In this document: positions 11,132-17,002 of the stretch, one piece after another
How positions within the stretch are numbered: position 1 is the first letter of the stretch
Layout: each line of letters opens with the position of its first letter
From: Ferrimicrobium sp.
Lineage (GTDB): Bacteria; Actinomycetota; Acidimicrobiia; Acidimicrobiales; Acidimicrobiaceae
DNA length: 64,000 bases
NCBI RefSeq assembly: GCF_027319265.1
Contig: NZ_DAHVNP010000031.1
Location: 1 to 64,000, forward strand
Direction: 5' to 3'
The notes under the pieces: generated by a model
The model's database searches: none
Told to the model about the DNA's origin: nothing
What the model saw: the letters and a program-made list of their open reading frames with translations, nothing else
Translations under genes and position numbers: made by a program

Positions 11132-12295
11132 TCATCGCTTAGGCTTGTCCTCGTCGTCGGGAGGAGGGTCGATCCTGTCGAGCTCCATAGTAATCTCCTC
11201 TCCCCGGCTGAGTTTGAGCGAGACGTAGGTGCCGACACCGATCGGAATGGGAATCCAGAAGTTGAAGAGGCGATACGAGAGCACCCCGAGGATCGCGATG
11301 CCCTTCGCGGTGCCAAAGCCGGTGATGAGTGGTATCATAATGCCTTCGACAACACCGAGTCCGCCAGGGGTAATGGGGATCGCGGCGGCGACGTTGGCAA
11401 TACCGTAACTGACGAGGAGGGCGTCAGGGTTGACCAGTGAGCCAAAGGCCAGCAACATGATCCACAGGCTCAACGCATCAAAGAGCCAGTTGCAGGCAGC
11501 CCAAGTGATGGCTCGCTTGAGGAGCTGTGGATCACTTGCGAGTGCACGGACTCGCTGGCCTGCACGGATAATTCCTGCGTGTATCGGCGCTTGAAAACGT
11601 CGGAGGAAGGGAAGCTTCTTCACCAGCCTATCCACGAGCAAGACCATACGGTCATTGCCTCGGGTGAGGGTGAGTACGAGCGCGATCACCGCCGCCATTA
11701 GGACAATCCCTAACCCGGCCACGATGAGGTAGAGGACGTTGAACCCAAACAAGGGTAGCGAGACGATCAGGGCAAGCCAGAGCATGAGGTTCAGCACCAC
11801 GGCCGAGCCAATGCCTTGGGTGGCCAAGGCGACACCCGCGTCGGTTCCCCGTACACCGAGACCGTTCAGCAGTCGTACAGTGAGTCCGGCACCACTCGCA
11901 GTCCCACCCGGCAACACGTGGGAGACGGCGAGTCCGGAGAGATCGACCTTTGCCAGCGATTTCAGGGACGGTTGTGGATGGGGTAATACGACTGAGGTGA
12001 GTTTGGCGTAGGCGAAGAGGGAAAATCCTTCGGCAAGAATCGCTAGCGGAATAAGCCAGTAATTCGCATGACTGAGGAGGTGCAGGGTTTTGCGAGCCCC
12101 AGCGATTTGGGGAATCACCAGGTACTCAATGACGAGGAGGATGGCGAACCCCCAGATTCCGCGGATCGCGAAATGGCGGATCAGTTTGCCCAGACTTCGT
12201 CGGGTTCCAGTGATGACCTCGCGCGACTGTTCTGTAGGGAGGTGACGAGAGGTCCGACGGCGACTCCCACCATTCTTGGACCGCCAAGTGCTCAC
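11132..12295 (-). CDS. Flippase-like integral membrane protein (LPG synthase TM family, UPF0104)
   Basis: A 387-residue polytopic protein with seven or eight hydrophobic helices. It matches the lysylphosphatidylglycerol synthetase transmembrane-region family (AglD2/UPF0104), including the hallmark PGGxxxGAG-like motif (LPGGTASGAG) and TPGGLGVVEG near the C-terminus. Members are thought to move lipids or lipid-linked sugars across the membrane; no enzyme domain is attached here. It starts with GTG after AGGGTGG. Its divergent neighbour is an AI-2E-family transporter, and envelope sugar genes follow, so a role in the envelope is plausible but not shown. Confidence 0.8.
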   Translation of the reverse strand: MSTWRSKNGGSRRRTSRHLPTEQSREVITGTRRSLGKLIRHFAIRGIWGFAILLVIEYLVIPQIAGARKTLHLLSHANYWLIPLAILAEGFSLFAYAKLTSVVLPHPQPSLKSLAKVDLSGLAVSHVLPGGTASGAGLTVRLLNGLGVRGTDAGVALATQGIGSAVVLNLMLWLALIVSLPLFGFNVLYLIVAGLGIVLMAAVIALVLTLTRGNDRMVLLVDRLVKKLPFLRRFQAPIHAGIIRAGQRVRALASDPQLLKRAITWAACNWLFDALSLWIMLLAFGSLVNPDALLVSYGIANVAAAIPITPGGLGVVEGIMIPLITGFGTAKGIAILGVLSYRLFNFWIPIPIGVGTYVSLKLSRGEEITMELDRIDPPPDDEDKPKR

Positions 12296-12552
12296 AGTAC
12301 CACCCTAGCTGACTTTGTGTAGGTTGAGGTTCTGTGGATGGACAAGAAGCATGATCAGGTGGACTAGGGTGAGTTTTCCTACTGATTGCGTAGATGGGTG
12401 TTGCCGATACGTGCGTCGGGCTATGCGATGGTGAACGGGGCACAGGCAAGGAGCTTTCGGATGGAGTCGTACGGCGTACGAAGGGTGCCGCCAGCGCTTG
12501 GTGGGAGTGGAGGTCTGTCGGTAATGTACGATGTGATCGCGAGGAGGCGTCC

Positions 12553-13653
12553 ATGACGACCCAGGGATCTCCCCATCGCTACCAGGGTCTGGGCAAGCAG
12601 ATTTTCCTAGCAGAGATCGGCATCGTCGGGGTCATACTGGCACTGGTCTTTGTGCTGTACGTCAAAGTCCTTGCGATTGAGGTTCTGGTCGCGATCGTCG
12701 GTGCAATCATTGTCGAACCGTTGGTGAATCTGTTGCGAAGGCTGCACTTTCCGCGAGGGGCTGCCGTCGCGCTGACCGTCTTTGTGGCTGCTGCAGTACT
12801 TGTCGGTCTTCTGCTGATCTTCAGTGTCCCGCTCTACTCGGCCGGCGTGCGACTCGCCAATGATCTTCCCGGGCTCATCCAAACGGTGACCCATCGGAAA
12901 ACGCGCATTGTGTCGTTGTTGCATAAATTTCATCTTGAACACTATCTCAATCTCTCCGCCCAGGGGCTAGCGAAGTTCGCCAGCACTGCGCTAGAGCCGG
13001 CCCTCCTCGCCGCGAAGGGAGTCCTCTCGTTTTTAACCGATGCGGTGATCACGGCGATGTTGACGGTATTTTTCTCACTGGAAGGCCCAAAGGGGATTGA
13101 CGTGGTGGTTGGAATGTTGCCAGCCGAACGACAACAGCATCTGCGGAGCGCTCTGCACGAGACGGGGGTGGCGGTGAGCGGCTACGTGCTCGGTAATCTC
13201 GCCACTTCGATCGTTGCGGGTATCGTTGTCTATGTCACCTTTCGCTCCCTTGGGCTTCCCTTCGCACTGCTGGTCTCTGTCTGGGTCGGGTTGGTCGATC
13301 TTATTCCTCTGGTGGGTGGTCTGTTGGCAGGTATTCCTGCTGTTGGGCTCGCCTTATTGCATGGGCTGCTACCGGCGATCATCCTCTTGGTGGTTTTTCT
13401 CGTCTATCAGCAGATAGAAAATCATCTTCTCAATCCCGTGATCCTTTCGCACACGGTGCAGCTCAATCCCCTCTGGATCTTGTTAGCCGTTTTGATCGGA
13501 GCACAGCTAGCAGGGGTTCCCGGAGCGCTGGTGGGCATCCCCATTGCCAGTGGTTTTCAAGTGCTGGCACGACGTCTGGTCGCGCCATGGCTACGTCGGC
13601 GGCTGAGGCCTGAGGATTCAGATGCCGTGGTTGGAGAGGGTGGCGAAGGTTAA
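12553..13653 (+). CDS. AI-2E family transporter
   Basis: A 366-residue membrane protein of the AI-2E transporter (TqsA/YdiK/PerM) family. Helices cluster at the N-terminus and in the C-terminal half, separated by an amphipathic middle region. The conserved LVDLIPLVGGLLAGIPA and LNPVILSHTVQLNPLWILLA stretches are characteristic. ATG at 12553 is chosen because GAGGAGG lies 5 bases upstream; the frame stays open 53 codons further but without family similarity. Substrates vary in this family (autoinducer-2, ions, unknown). The 3' end overlaps the convergent deacetylase gene by 36 bp. Confidence 0.85.
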   Translation: MTTQGSPHRYQGLGKQIFLAEIGIVGVILALVFVLYVKVLAIEVLVAIVGAIIVEPLVNLLRRLHFPRGAAVALTVFVAAAVLVGLLLIFSVPLYSAGVRLANDLPGLIQTVTHRKTRIVSLLHKFHLEHYLNLSAQGLAKFASTALEPALLAAKGVLSFLTDAVITAMLTVFFSLEGPKGIDVVVGMLPAERQQHLRSALHETGVAVSGYVLGNLATSIVAGIVVYVTFRSLGLPFALLVSVWVGLVDLIPLVGGLLAGIPAVGLALLHGLLPAIILLVVFLVYQQIENHLLNPVILSHTVQLNPLWILLAVLIGAQLAGVPGALVGIPIASGFQVLARRLVAPWLRRRLRPEDSDAVVGEGGEG

Positions 13654-14331
13654 ACGCTGGGAGCGGGCGAGGTCGATGAGCTGGGGAAGAGCCTGCAGCG
13701 TCGCCTGAAACGACCCCGGATAGGAGGTGCAATCGGAGTCATGGAGGAGTATGGTGACACCAGGGTGGAACCGTGACCGTAGATCTGCCATCACCGATAC
13801 TGGTGATGCTTGGCGTCGCCAGTCCCTACCCCAAGTTCCCCAAAGTACCAGGCGCAGGCCCTCCGCATGGGCGGCGGTGAGATCAGCTCGTGTGACGACA
13901 CCATAGGGCGGCCGGTACCAGGTGGGACGGGTCCCCGTGGCGGTTTCGATGGTGGCGAGTGCGCGAGCGAGATCGTAACGGATGCTGCGGGCACTGCGGA
14001 TCAGGTGATTCTTGTGCCAGTAGCCATGCGTGCCGAGTTCGTGGCCTCGCGCGAGGATGTCGCGGGCGAGTCCCGGTTGGCGATCCACCATCTCGCCGAG
14101 GACAAAAAACGTCGCTTTAATATCGTTCGCGTCCAAAAGGTCCAATAGCAGCGGTGTGGAGATTGGGTCTGGGCCGTCATCGAAGGTTAAGGCAATGGAC
14201 TGGGGGTGACCATCCCCAAGAAGCCAGGGGGCGGTGTAGGGGGCGAGGATCCAGTTGTGGGCTAGAAAGGATGCAGCATGGAGAGCAACCCTGGTGCTCG
14301 CAAGGGTGAGGACGGCGGTGGAGGTCTTCAT
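13618..14331 (-). CDS. Polysaccharide deacetylase (NodB domain)
   Basis: A 237-residue carbohydrate esterase family 4 enzyme with an N-terminal signal anchor (residues 1-25). The catalytic motifs are complete: TFDDGPDP supplies the base and metal Asp, and HELGTHGYWHKNHL contains the metal-binding histidines, followed by RPPYG and the late LLHDSD motif. It should remove N-acetyl (or O-acetyl) groups from an extracellular polysaccharide or peptidoglycan. Its start overlaps the stop of the upstream glycosyltransferase by 4 bases (ATGA), so the two are co-translated. That partner carries a degenerate copy of the same domain. Confidence 0.88.
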   Translation of the reverse strand: MKTSTAVLTLASTRVALHAASFLAHNWILAPYTAPWLLGDGHPQSIALTFDDGPDPISTPLLLDLLDANDIKATFFVLGEMVDRQPGLARDILARGHELGTHGYWHKNHLIRSARSIRYDLARALATIETATGTRPTWYRPPYGVVTRADLTAAHAEGLRLVLWGTWGRDWRRQASPVSVMADLRSRFHPGVTILLHDSDCTSYPGSFQATLQALPQLIDLARSQRLTFATLSNHGI

Positions 14332-16100
14332 GCGTGCACGCCTTGGGACCCATGCAAGGTTGCAAAGGGGGCGAGAGTGAGATGGTCGCTGTTGAGATGT
14401 TTGATCTCCATCTGGAGTTCAGCCTCCGCTTTGGCGGCTGACAGCTGGCTCAGATTGAGTTCGAGAATGGCGCCAGGGTGCGGTGTCAGATCGAAGTGGT
14501 GGGCGAGGATGCGAGCAGGGATGATGGTCTGGTGATGGAGTGACGCCCAGGCGAGATCCACGGCATTCATGGTGTTCTGTGGGAGGTAGGCGTTGATCTG
14601 GACCCCGAGTACCCGAGCCAGGTCGGCGCGTCCTGTGGAGAGGTCGTTTTCGGGAAGGATGAAATTGAAGTCCGAGGAGTTGCCACTACCACCGTTGATG
14701 AGCTGAACCCCCTGGTGAAAGGCGTACCGCACAGCGCCGGGATGAGCTATGGCCTGTCGACCGGTGACGACAACTCCGATGCCCTCGTTGATGATCAAGC
14801 TGTCGATCGCCGGGTTCACAAGCGCCGATGCGGGGAGGCGGGTGGAAAGATACACGTAGTCGGATTTGTTGGCAGTTCTCGTTAGGTTGAGGCCGTGATA
14901 GCCGATGACGCCCGAGAGGAGGTTGGCGACCACAAAGAGCACGATCAGCATGGCGGCGGTCCTTGTCAGACGTAACGCCCAAACGCCATGGCGGGTTGTC
15001 GGGGTCAACCGAGCTTCATGAAGTAGCTCCAGGATCGGCTGATGAGGCGCGGTCTGAAACTGATCGAGTTGTTTGGTGACCTGTTCGGCTGGATGGAGGC
15101 GCAAGTTGCGTACCTGCTGGACGAGTTGCTCCTCGTTATGACACCAGACCGTTGCACCGACGGACTCCATAGCTGCTACATTTTCGCGCCCATGTCCTGC
15201 GATTGGTCGGTACGATATCACTGGTCGCTGTGCCGCCATCGCCTCAAGTGCGGTCAATCCTCCCGCGTTTTGAATGACGACGTCGGCAGCTGCCATGTAG
15301 AGGCGCACCTCCTCGGTCCAGCCGACGGACAGCCCGCCACCGTGGCGTTCGAGTTGGGCCTGAAGATCGTGGTTACGTCCACAGAGAGCAACGGGGAAGA
15401 TGTCCTCTTCAGTGGCGAGCAGCTCGAAGGTCTGGGCGATGTCCCCCACCCCCCAGGAACCTGAGACGATGAGCACGATCGAGCGGTCGTTGGGGATGCC
15501 GAGAGCCTCCCTTGCTGCACGCTGATCAACAGGATGGAAGAAGCGAGCCTCAACAAAGGGTCCGGTGACCACAATCTCTCCGTTGGCACCCGCTCGGTTC
15601 CGTGCCTGCATGGCTGCCGTCTCAGAGACGCATAGGTGTAAGTCGACGGCGGGATGCACCCAGAGTGGGTGAACGGAATAGTCGGTGAGGAAGGTGGCAA
15701 TCGGCCGATGCGAGATGACCGGATTCTTTTGGTGTCTCATCTGACCGAGCAGCTGTGCACTAAAGGGGTGCAGAGCGATGATGATGTCGGGTTCAGTCTC
15801 CTCAATCCACCGAACTACACCACGCTGGAAGAAGGCCTGCAGCGCGCGCCGGGTGATGGTGGCCATCGGGGAGAAGGTATTCCAAAGCCAGAATTCGAGT
15901 TGATACGCCCATGGGGCTCGTTCGACCTCAAGTTTGAAACCTCGTTCTAAAAGCCGCCCCATACGAGGAGATGCATCCAGGAAATCACGAGTTTCGCACG
16001 TAATCCCGTAGCTATTGAGTTCCTCCGAGATCACCCGGGCTACTCCGTTGTGGCCACCTCCCATTCTCGCCGAGAGCAAGAGTGCCTTAGTGCTTGACAT
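14328..16100 (-). CDS. MGDG synthase-like glycosyltransferase fused to TM helix and degenerate NodB domain
   Basis: A 590-residue protein in three parts. Residues 1-365 form a GT28 glycosyltransferase of the monogalactosyldiacylglycerol synthase type: RMGGGHNGVA at the N-terminus and a nucleotide-sugar site, QNAGGLTALEAMAAQRPVI. A hydrophobic helix follows near residues 380-400. The remaining 190 residues look like an extracytoplasmic NodB-like domain: VVTGRQAIAHPGAVRY followed by FHQGVQLINGG aligns with the deacetylase pattern VTGxxAxxHPxxVRxxxxxGHEIGNH. However, TFDDG and the metal histidines are absent, so it should not be a metal-dependent deacetylase. A TAGAAT hexamer 8 nt before the ATG suggests a near-leaderless mRNA. 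Its likely product is a glycolipid. Confidence 0.78.
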   Translation of the reverse strand: MSSTKALLLSARMGGGHNGVARVISEELNSYGITCETRDFLDASPRMGRLLERGFKLEVERAPWAYQLEFWLWNTFSPMATITRRALQAFFQRGVVRWIEETEPDIIIALHPFSAQLLGQMRHQKNPVISHRPIATFLTDYSVHPLWVHPAVDLHLCVSETAAMQARNRAGANGEIVVTGPFVEARFFHPVDQRAAREALGIPNDRSIVLIVSGSWGVGDIAQTFELLATEEDIFPVALCGRNHDLQAQLERHGGGLSVGWTEEVRLYMAAADVVIQNAGGLTALEAMAAQRPVISYRPIAGHGRENVAAMESVGATVWCHNEEQLVQQVRNLRLHPAEQVTKQLDQFQTAPHQPILELLHEARLTPTTRHGVWALRLTRTAAMLIVLFVVANLLSGVIGYHGLNLTRTANKSDYVYLSTRLPASALVNPAIDSLIINEGIGVVVTGRQAIAHPGAVRYAFHQGVQLINGGSGNSSDFNFILPENDLSTGRADLARVLGVQINAYLPQNTMNAVDLAWASLHHQTIIPARILAHHFDLTPHPGAILELNLSQLSAAKAEAELQMEIKHLNSDHLTLAPFATLHGSQGVHA

Positions 16101-16105
16101 TGCAG

Positions 16106-17002
16106 ATGATTCTACCAGTTCGCCATAGACTTAGAGACCTCGTGGTAGTGCTTCTATCTTTACTGGCGGCGATTTGTTTTGGGATGGCCGCAGTGTTGCA
16201 ATTTCAAGCGAGCACCGCGTCGGCCAGTGAGCTTAATCTGCGCTTTAGCCTGTTATGGCGGCTACTGGCTAATCCGCGGTTTGGATTGGGGGCCATCTTC
16301 GATGTCGTAGGTGGGGTGGCCCAGTTCTTCGCCCTCAAGTATGGTTCCGTTCCCCAGGTGCTGCCGATCTTGGCGAGTGGCTTTGTGCTCGCCATTCTTC
16401 TCGAGCATTTTCTCGCTCGGCGTCCTGTGGGCGTTGGCGACGTGATCGCGCTGCTGGTCAGCTGTGGGGCGTTGATCACCTTCTTGGTGCTCAGCCCACA
16501 AGCGAGTGGAGAGACGATCTACGTCGGTGCGTCCATCCTGATCGGAGGGCTGGGAGTCGTGATTGGTGTCTTGACCGTCACCCTTTTGCGCCCGCTGCTG
16601 GCAGGTCATGGACGGATACAGGCGATGATAGGGGCAGCACTTCTCGGTGTCGTCTCGATCTTCGAACGTGAGGTGGGGATTCTGTGGACCCAAGAGGGCG
16701 CCGTGCGTACCTTAGAACACTGGGAACTCTGGGTGCTCGTGGTGGTGGGGGGACTTGCGTTGTTGGTGGTGCAGAGTGCCTTTCAGCGACAGAGCCTCGC
16801 GCGGGTCTTGCCGTTGGTTACCGTGGGTGAGCCGATTGCTGCCATTGCGATCAGTGCGCTCGCGTTGCAGACGCCGCTCTTTCGGGCTGGAGCGAGTACC
16901 TTTGCGAGTCTTGGAGCCCTCGTTGTCGAGATACTGGCGTTGATCTATCTTGCCCGTTCTGAGGTTCGTGTTGATGCCGAACTCCACCATGACGGCAACT
17001 GA
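16106..17002 (+). CDS. DMT/EamA-like transporter, 9-10 transmembrane helices
   Basis: A polytopic membrane protein of about 298 residues built almost entirely of hydrophobic helices. The SVPQVLPILASGFVLAILLEH stretch and the internal two-half organisation resemble drug/metabolite (EamA) transporters and NIPA-type magnesium transporters. The substrate is unknown. Its start region overlaps the divergent glycosyltransferase start; ATG at 16106 is the first start not inside that gene, and no Shine-Dalgarno sequence is visible, so the start is uncertain. The downstream hydrolase gene overlaps its 3' end. Confidence 0.7.
   Translation: MILPVRHRLRDLVVVLLSLLAAICFGMAAVLQFQASTASASELNLRFSLLWRLLANPRFGLGAIFDVVGGVAQFFALKYGSVPQVLPILASGFVLAILLEHFLARRPVGVGDVIALLVSCGALITFLVLSPQASGETIYVGASILIGGLGVVIGVLTVTLLRPLLAGHGRIQAMIGAALLGVVSIFEREVGILWTQEGAVRTLEHWELWVLVVVGGLALLVVQSAFQRQSLARVLPLVTVGEPIAAIAISALALQTPLFRAGASTFASLGALVVEILALIYLARSEVRVDAELHHDGN

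Follow-up and report, generated by a model that had tools for sequence, protein, structure and literature searches.

An apparently dead CE4-fold domain on a glycosyltransferase of Ferrimicrobium sp., encoded beside an intact NodB deacetylase in a putative aminoglycolipid cassette

A glycosyltransferase (GT) gene of Ferrimicrobium sp. continues, behind a single membrane helix, into a region that resembles a NodB deacetylase deprived of its catalytic residues, and an intact NodB gene lies directly downstream. This raises the question of what an apparently inactive copy contributes to the enzyme that carries it, and of what the locus as a whole might produce. The analysis concerned a window of 64,000 nucleotides, i.e. 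the whole stretch of DNA examined (NCBI RefSeq assembly GCF_027319265.1, contig NZ_DAHVNP010000031.1), the relevant features of which are listed in Table 1. A first-pass annotation, made from the sequence alone, had described the fusion as an MGDG-synthase-type GT, one helix and a NodB-like C-terminal part, and this architecture was confirmed by Pfam, hydropathy and fold comparison. In this genome, the queries used retrieved a single MGDG_synth-family gene (the fusion) and a single intact NodB gene of its kind.

Table 1. Location of the fusion gene, its parts and the neighbouring genes in the window
Feature	Coordinates	Strand	Size or extent	Basis
Fusion gene (glycosyltransferase, transmembrane helix, apparently dead CE4 domain)	14328..16100	-	590 aa	
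MGDG/DGDG-synthase-type GT-B glycosyltransferase	15006..16100	-	residues 1-365	Pfam, NCBIfam, PDB matches, invariant columns
Single membrane helix	14901..14957	-	hydrophobic core ~382-400	hydropathy, charge bias, predicted helix
Apparently dead CE4/NodB-fold domain, predicted extracytoplasmic	14331..14882	-	residues 407-590	structure prediction, Foldseek, VIA, hhalign, conservation
Intact CE4/NodB deacetylase	13618..14331	-	237 aa	Polysacc_deac_1, motifs, overlap
DMT-family (EamA-like) multi-spanning transporter	16094..17002	+	302 aa	NCBIfam NF038012, synteny
LPG_synthase_TM (PF03706) MprF/HexF-like flippase-domain protein, candidate flippase	11132..12295	-	387 aa	Pfam, NCBIfam, synteny
AI-2E family permease	12394..13653	+		Pfam (171.9 bits), synteny

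The N-terminal half of the fusion protein belongs to the MGDG/DGDG-synthase-type glycosyltransferases, both Pfam domains scoring above their cut-offs: MGDG_synth over residues 17-181 (57.6 bits; cut-off 25) and Glyco_tran_28_C over residues 209-346 (29.4 bits; cut-off 22). Columns G14, G16, H17, H144 and E286 were invariant in the alignment of relatives. The protein resembles the UgtP/YpfP-type processive diacylglycerol glucosyltransferases and plant MGD1, which were matched among PDB sequences (9wde and 4wyi); the nearest NCBIfam model was that of diglucosyl-DAG synthase (NF010135), although the score of 128.6 bits lies far below its equivalog cut-off of 500, and the NCBIfam match to MurG was weak. 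To our knowledge, neither a C-terminal membrane helix nor a CE4 domain occurs on UgtP/YpfP-type enzymes or MGD1. Judging from these similarities, the fusion enzyme probably makes a glycosylated membrane lipid.

Only one strongly hydrophobic segment was detected in the fusion protein (peak at residues 382-400, with a helix predicted at 372-402). A positive N side of such a helix is the usual sign of an N-in, C-out orientation. The N side was the more positive one in 53 of the 54 fusions, with mean net charges (20 residues on each side) of +4.2 versus +0.5 on the C side. Because of this bias, the GT is predicted to be cytoplasmic and the C-terminal domain to lie outside, which supports, as a prediction, its earlier placement on the outer face of the membrane.

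No Pfam family was assigned above cut-off over the C-terminal 197 residues, and no NCBIfam match fell within the C-terminal region. The NodB-pattern motifs previously pointed out there, VVTGRQAIAHPGAVRY and GVQLINGG, are both present. When a profile of 29 diverse copies of the domain was compared with the family of the neighbouring NodB using hhalign, 159 columns were aligned in order (E 1.2e-5; 4.9e-5 with a narrower domain profile), and a search of PDB sequences with the domain profile identified the CE4 enzyme 2c71 (E 3.5e-4). The structure predicted for residues 407-590 (pLDDT 80.4, pTM 0.79) placed CE4 proteins at the top of the Foldseek matches (E 2.3e-7), and VIA gave Z scores of up to 16.1 (rmsd 3.1, 170 residues aligned). 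Chance likeness to NodB was ruled out by the three methods (VIA structure match, PDB-sequence profile search and hhalign), and, on the predicted model and the profiles, the domain is of the NodB/CE4 homology-domain fold and not of an unrelated one. The best VIA matches mix active deacetylases with three entries of BA3943 of Bacillus (PDB 7bkf, 6hpa, 6hm9), a CE4 fold titled a pseudoenzyme (Z 15.7-16.1), but its identity to the fused domain is ~13% and active CE4s score equally well. We know of no fusion of BA3943 to a glycosyltransferase.

In the hhalign register, the position of the CE4 catalytic base (Asp) is occupied by R421 (Arg in 17/29 domain copies, never Asp), that of the metal Asp by L422 and that of the motif-3 Arg by L506. 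The first metal His corresponds to G470 (Gly in 29/29), the second falls at a variable position (His in 3/29), and there is no conserved His at the motif-5 position, where the exact register is uncertain. The aligned base, metal ligands, arginine and acid of active CE4 deacetylases were kept in no relative compared. TFDDG and H-x3-H are both absent from the fused domain, as the first-pass annotation had stated, and the homologs with full metal ligands that it had named as a counter-case were not encountered, an intact TFDDG being absent from every extended C-terminal region of the relatives examined. The possibility that some relatives carry a fused, intact deacetylase was rejected, as FDDG occurred within none of these regions. 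By its aligned residues, then, the fused domain is classed as catalytically dead as a CE4 deacetylase.

The domain has invariant residues of its own (N469, G470, G471, P507 and D515, in all 29 diverse sequences), with N469-G471 at CE4 motif 2 and P507 at motif 3, in or close to the motifs of the former active site. Y417, P483, Y505, A517, W518 and H523 are additionally invariant in the family to which the window belongs; H523 is kept in 20 of the 29 copies and is not kept in other orders. Between close relatives, dN/dS was ~0.10-0.21 for the domain versus ~0.04-0.06 for the GT part (synonymous change was near saturation in more distant pairs). The low dN/dS and the invariant residues thus argue that the domain is conserved and not decaying.

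The intact deacetylase was confirmed by Polysacc_deac_1 (113 bits), and its start and the stop of the upstream fusion gene share four bases (ATGA; junction GCATGAAG), as first proposed. The motifs TFDDG, H-x3-H, RPPYG and LLHD, which were conserved in one alignment (one sequence of which is cut by a contig end) and invariant in another, place it by sequence among the active CE4 deacetylases, and D51, D52, H102, H106, R140 and H197 are conserved in its relatives. Its N-terminus contains a hydrophobic segment of moderate strength, which is compatible with outward anchoring, but is not proof of it.

The full fusion was found throughout the Acidimicrobiaceae, the family of the window, including Ferrithrix thermotolerans and Acidithrix ferrooxidans, and in other orders of the class Acidimicrobiia, 24 of 296 genomes in total; the relatives of the window are mainly metagenome assemblies, so a few of the absences may stem from assembly. 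Fusions were also identified in Frankia, a Frankiaceae MAG, Kutzneria and Streptacidiphilus, where the domain profile scored 42-89 bits. Since all matches of the class search sit in long open frames and none stands alone, the domain occurs fused and not by itself. When the whole phylum was searched with this profile, the matches beyond the known group were mostly weak and partial, and they were not counted as evidence.

NodB follows the fusion gene immediately in 51 of the 54 fusion loci, which are related by descent and thus do not represent independent observations. The proposed check of whether an active deacetylase always follows the fusion therefore gave a positive answer for all but three loci, and in these a NodB relative is located elsewhere. 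Acidithrix has a NodB match 1.7 kb downstream of the fusion, the second locus has a relative ~5 kb downstream on its contig, and in the third genome the relative adjoins another copy of the fusion at a different site. An apparent lack of NodB in Kutzneria, given by a literal FDDG search, was an artefact, as the NodB profile finds one directly downstream. Related GTs without the dead domain (in Streptomyces, Kitasatospora and others) are also followed by NodB in 17 of 25 cases; NodB is therefore the partner of the GT, and the dead domain is optional. The earlier suggestion that the side-by-side occurrence of an inactive and an active copy points to their coupling was not supported by this result. 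In the GT tree, both main actinobacterial branches include proteins with the domain, and six changes are needed to account for its distribution, at least four of them forced by the starred branches; most simply, this would reflect one early gain followed by several losses, the direction not being fixed by the tree. As the domain has apparently disappeared several times from synthases that kept their NodB partner, it is optional to the core pathway. Since domain-less GTs share the adjacency of NodB, this adjacency was rejected as an indication that NodB and the dead domain are coupled. Four Streptomyces-type relatives (L130 among them) retain the C-terminal helix and lack the CE4 domain, as if the domain alone had been lost.

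Several transporter genes accompany the pair. The DMT gene is divergent from the fusion gene, the start region of which it overlaps with its own start, and its product scored 50.1 bits against NF038012, just at the cut-off of 50 (three DMT-family proteins of the surveyed loci reached 144-191 bits). A DMT-family transporter is adjacent in 44/54 fusions, in two arrangements: divergent upstream (39 loci) or on the same strand directly after NodB (7 loci, one without the dead domain). An operon-like GT-NodB-DMT order was observed in Frankia-type and some Acidimicrobiia loci, with 4-base overlaps at both the GT/NodB and NodB/DMT junctions of one Frankiaceae locus. DMT transporters are widespread and serve varied functions; this one may be the actual flippase of the cassette. 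The second candidate, matched by PF03706 (95.6 bits) and TIGR00374 (71 bits), lies ~2 kb downstream on the strand of the fusion in 26 of the loci surveyed, a synteny confined to the family of the window and a few order-level relatives. Because the AI-2E gene, conserved at this site through most of the family, intervenes on the opposite strand, this flippase gene and the GT-NodB pair of the window do not form one operon. A role of the AI-2E permease in the cassette is doubtful.

The closest parallel in organization is HexSDF of Clostridioides difficile, which comprises an MGDG-synthase-type enzyme, a polysaccharide deacetylase and an MprF-like flippase; its product is aminohexosyl-hexosyldiradylglycerol, and hexSDF with ugtA suffice for the aminoglycolipid in Bacillus subtilis (PMC10128005, PMC11898633). 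The window contains the same three kinds of genes, including an MGDG-type GT side by side with a CE4 deacetylase and an MprF-like flippase gene on the same strand, a likeness at the level of gene families. The locus differs by the DMT transporter, by the AI-2E gene between deacetylase and flippase, and by the dead CE4 domain on the synthase, which is not reported in the accessible parts of those sources. GpgSDF of Pseudomonas aeruginosa, responsible for glucosaminyl phosphatidylglycerol (PMC12713373), follows the same logic of synthase, deacetylase and UPF0104/PF03706-type flippase, but its enzymes belong to families unlike those of the window (GpgS to the family-4 type GTs, GpgD to the COG3233 deacetylases), and the NCBIfam models of this system matched the window proteins weakly. 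As regards non-enzymatic CE4 proteins, BA0330 and BA0331 of Bacillus are of CE4 type and have structural roles without deacetylase activity (PMC4505593). Searches of the literature, largely outside subscription journals, for inactive NodB/CE4 domains and for fusions of a GT with a deacetylase did not turn up this architecture. Titles and abstracts yielded no usable polar-lipid data for Acidimicrobiaceae, and none were found for the organism itself.

These parallels lead us to consider, with slightly better than even confidence, that the locus is a HexSDF/GpgSDF-like cassette for a cationic, de-N-acetylated aminosugar membrane lipid, whose synthase carries an outward dead CE4 domain that likely binds the headgroup. 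The cytoplasmic GT would add an N-acetylhexosamine to a diacylglycerol-type lipid (the enzyme family suggests the reaction; donor and acceptor are our proposal), the neighbouring DMT protein, the PF03706 protein or both would move the product to the outer leaflet, and the separate, translationally coupled NodB, with its complete set of catalytic residues, would strip the acetyl group outside. The one helix would tether the synthase to the outward CE4 domain, in which the standard catalytic and metal residues are lost and other invariants are kept near the same motifs. Within the lipid pathway, the domain probably has an accessory function in binding or control. Sugar-headgroup binding is its most likely role, as its invariant residues coincide with, or lie close to, what were the motifs of the active site. 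Having bound the headgroup, it might present it to NodB or signal the lipid level to the synthase; a purely structural role is a further candidate.

The signalling variant can be stated more specifically: the domain would bind the outer-leaflet (amino)glycolipid in a remodelled pocket and, via the helix, tune the cytoplasmic GT, i.e. sense the product across the membrane, which we regard as rather unlikely in this precise form. Slightly less doubtful, yet still a minority reading, is that the domain serves as a protein-protein scaffold which, as other pseudoenzymes do, pairs with the active NodB (or with a transporter) in order to position it or stimulate it allosterically, itself binding no sugar. 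The shared fold of the two domains, the nearly constant adjacency and translational coupling of NodB, and the lack of stand-alone copies in the class search would all fit such a scaffold; however, NodB does not need the domain where it is paired with domain-less GTs, and the position of N469-G471 and P507 suggests a pocket over an interface. A pocket could also mean new chemistry on the sugar or lipid headgroup, at a site formed by N469, G470, G471, P507 and D515 (with H523 in the family of the window). We consider this very unlikely: a non-CE4 residue set strictly conserved in 29/29 sequences and purifying selection on the domain are in its favour, but few invariant polar residues remain outside the family (N469 and D515, with H523 in only 20/29), and we know of no precedent for new chemistry on such a remodelled CE4 site.

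Peptidoglycan, chitin and exopolysaccharide are the most frequent substrates of CE4 enzymes. From this general knowledge, and from the weak match of the GT to MurG, one might suppose that the GT and NodB build a cell-wall or exopolysaccharide precursor (e.g. on undecaprenyl phosphate) and not a membrane glycolipid. This seems distinctly improbable, as the best GT matches are diacylglycerol glycosyltransferases, the neighbours are transporters from families that include lipid flippases, and no polymerase or Wzx/Wzy-type genes were present among the neighbours examined. It is least credible, and in our opinion extremely unlikely, that the domain is the drifting leftover of a once-active fused deacetylase. 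Its apparent repeated loss in Streptomyces and Kitasatospora, the relatives that keep the helix alone and its faster evolution compared with the GT part are what one would expect of a relic, but purifying selection speaks against this, as do the invariant residues and the preservation of the domain at full length throughout Acidimicrobiia and in several actinomycete lineages.

The cassette proposed above would connect a widespread actinobacterial GT-NodB pair, of which we found no description, with the synthase-deacetylase-flippase systems that have recently been defined for cationic glycolipids. It would also add an example of a pseudoenzyme whose dead copy is built into the enzyme acting one pathway step earlier, across the membrane according to the predicted topology. 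Since synthases with the domain and synthases lacking it occur in nature, each kind paired with NodB, its role lends itself to direct testing.

Further genes were noted around some relatives. In five Kitasatospora-type loci a response-regulator gene is situated ~1.6-2.9 kb before the end of the GT gene, an arrangement that recalls HexRK next to hexSDF in C. difficile. Inspection by eye revealed a UbiA-prenyltransferase-like multi-spanning protein upstream of the fusion in several (five) class-level relatives, as well as DedA-like membrane proteins, a lipid-transport-type neighbour, near the domain-less loci L130 (2.4-1.7 kb before the end of the GT gene) and L143.
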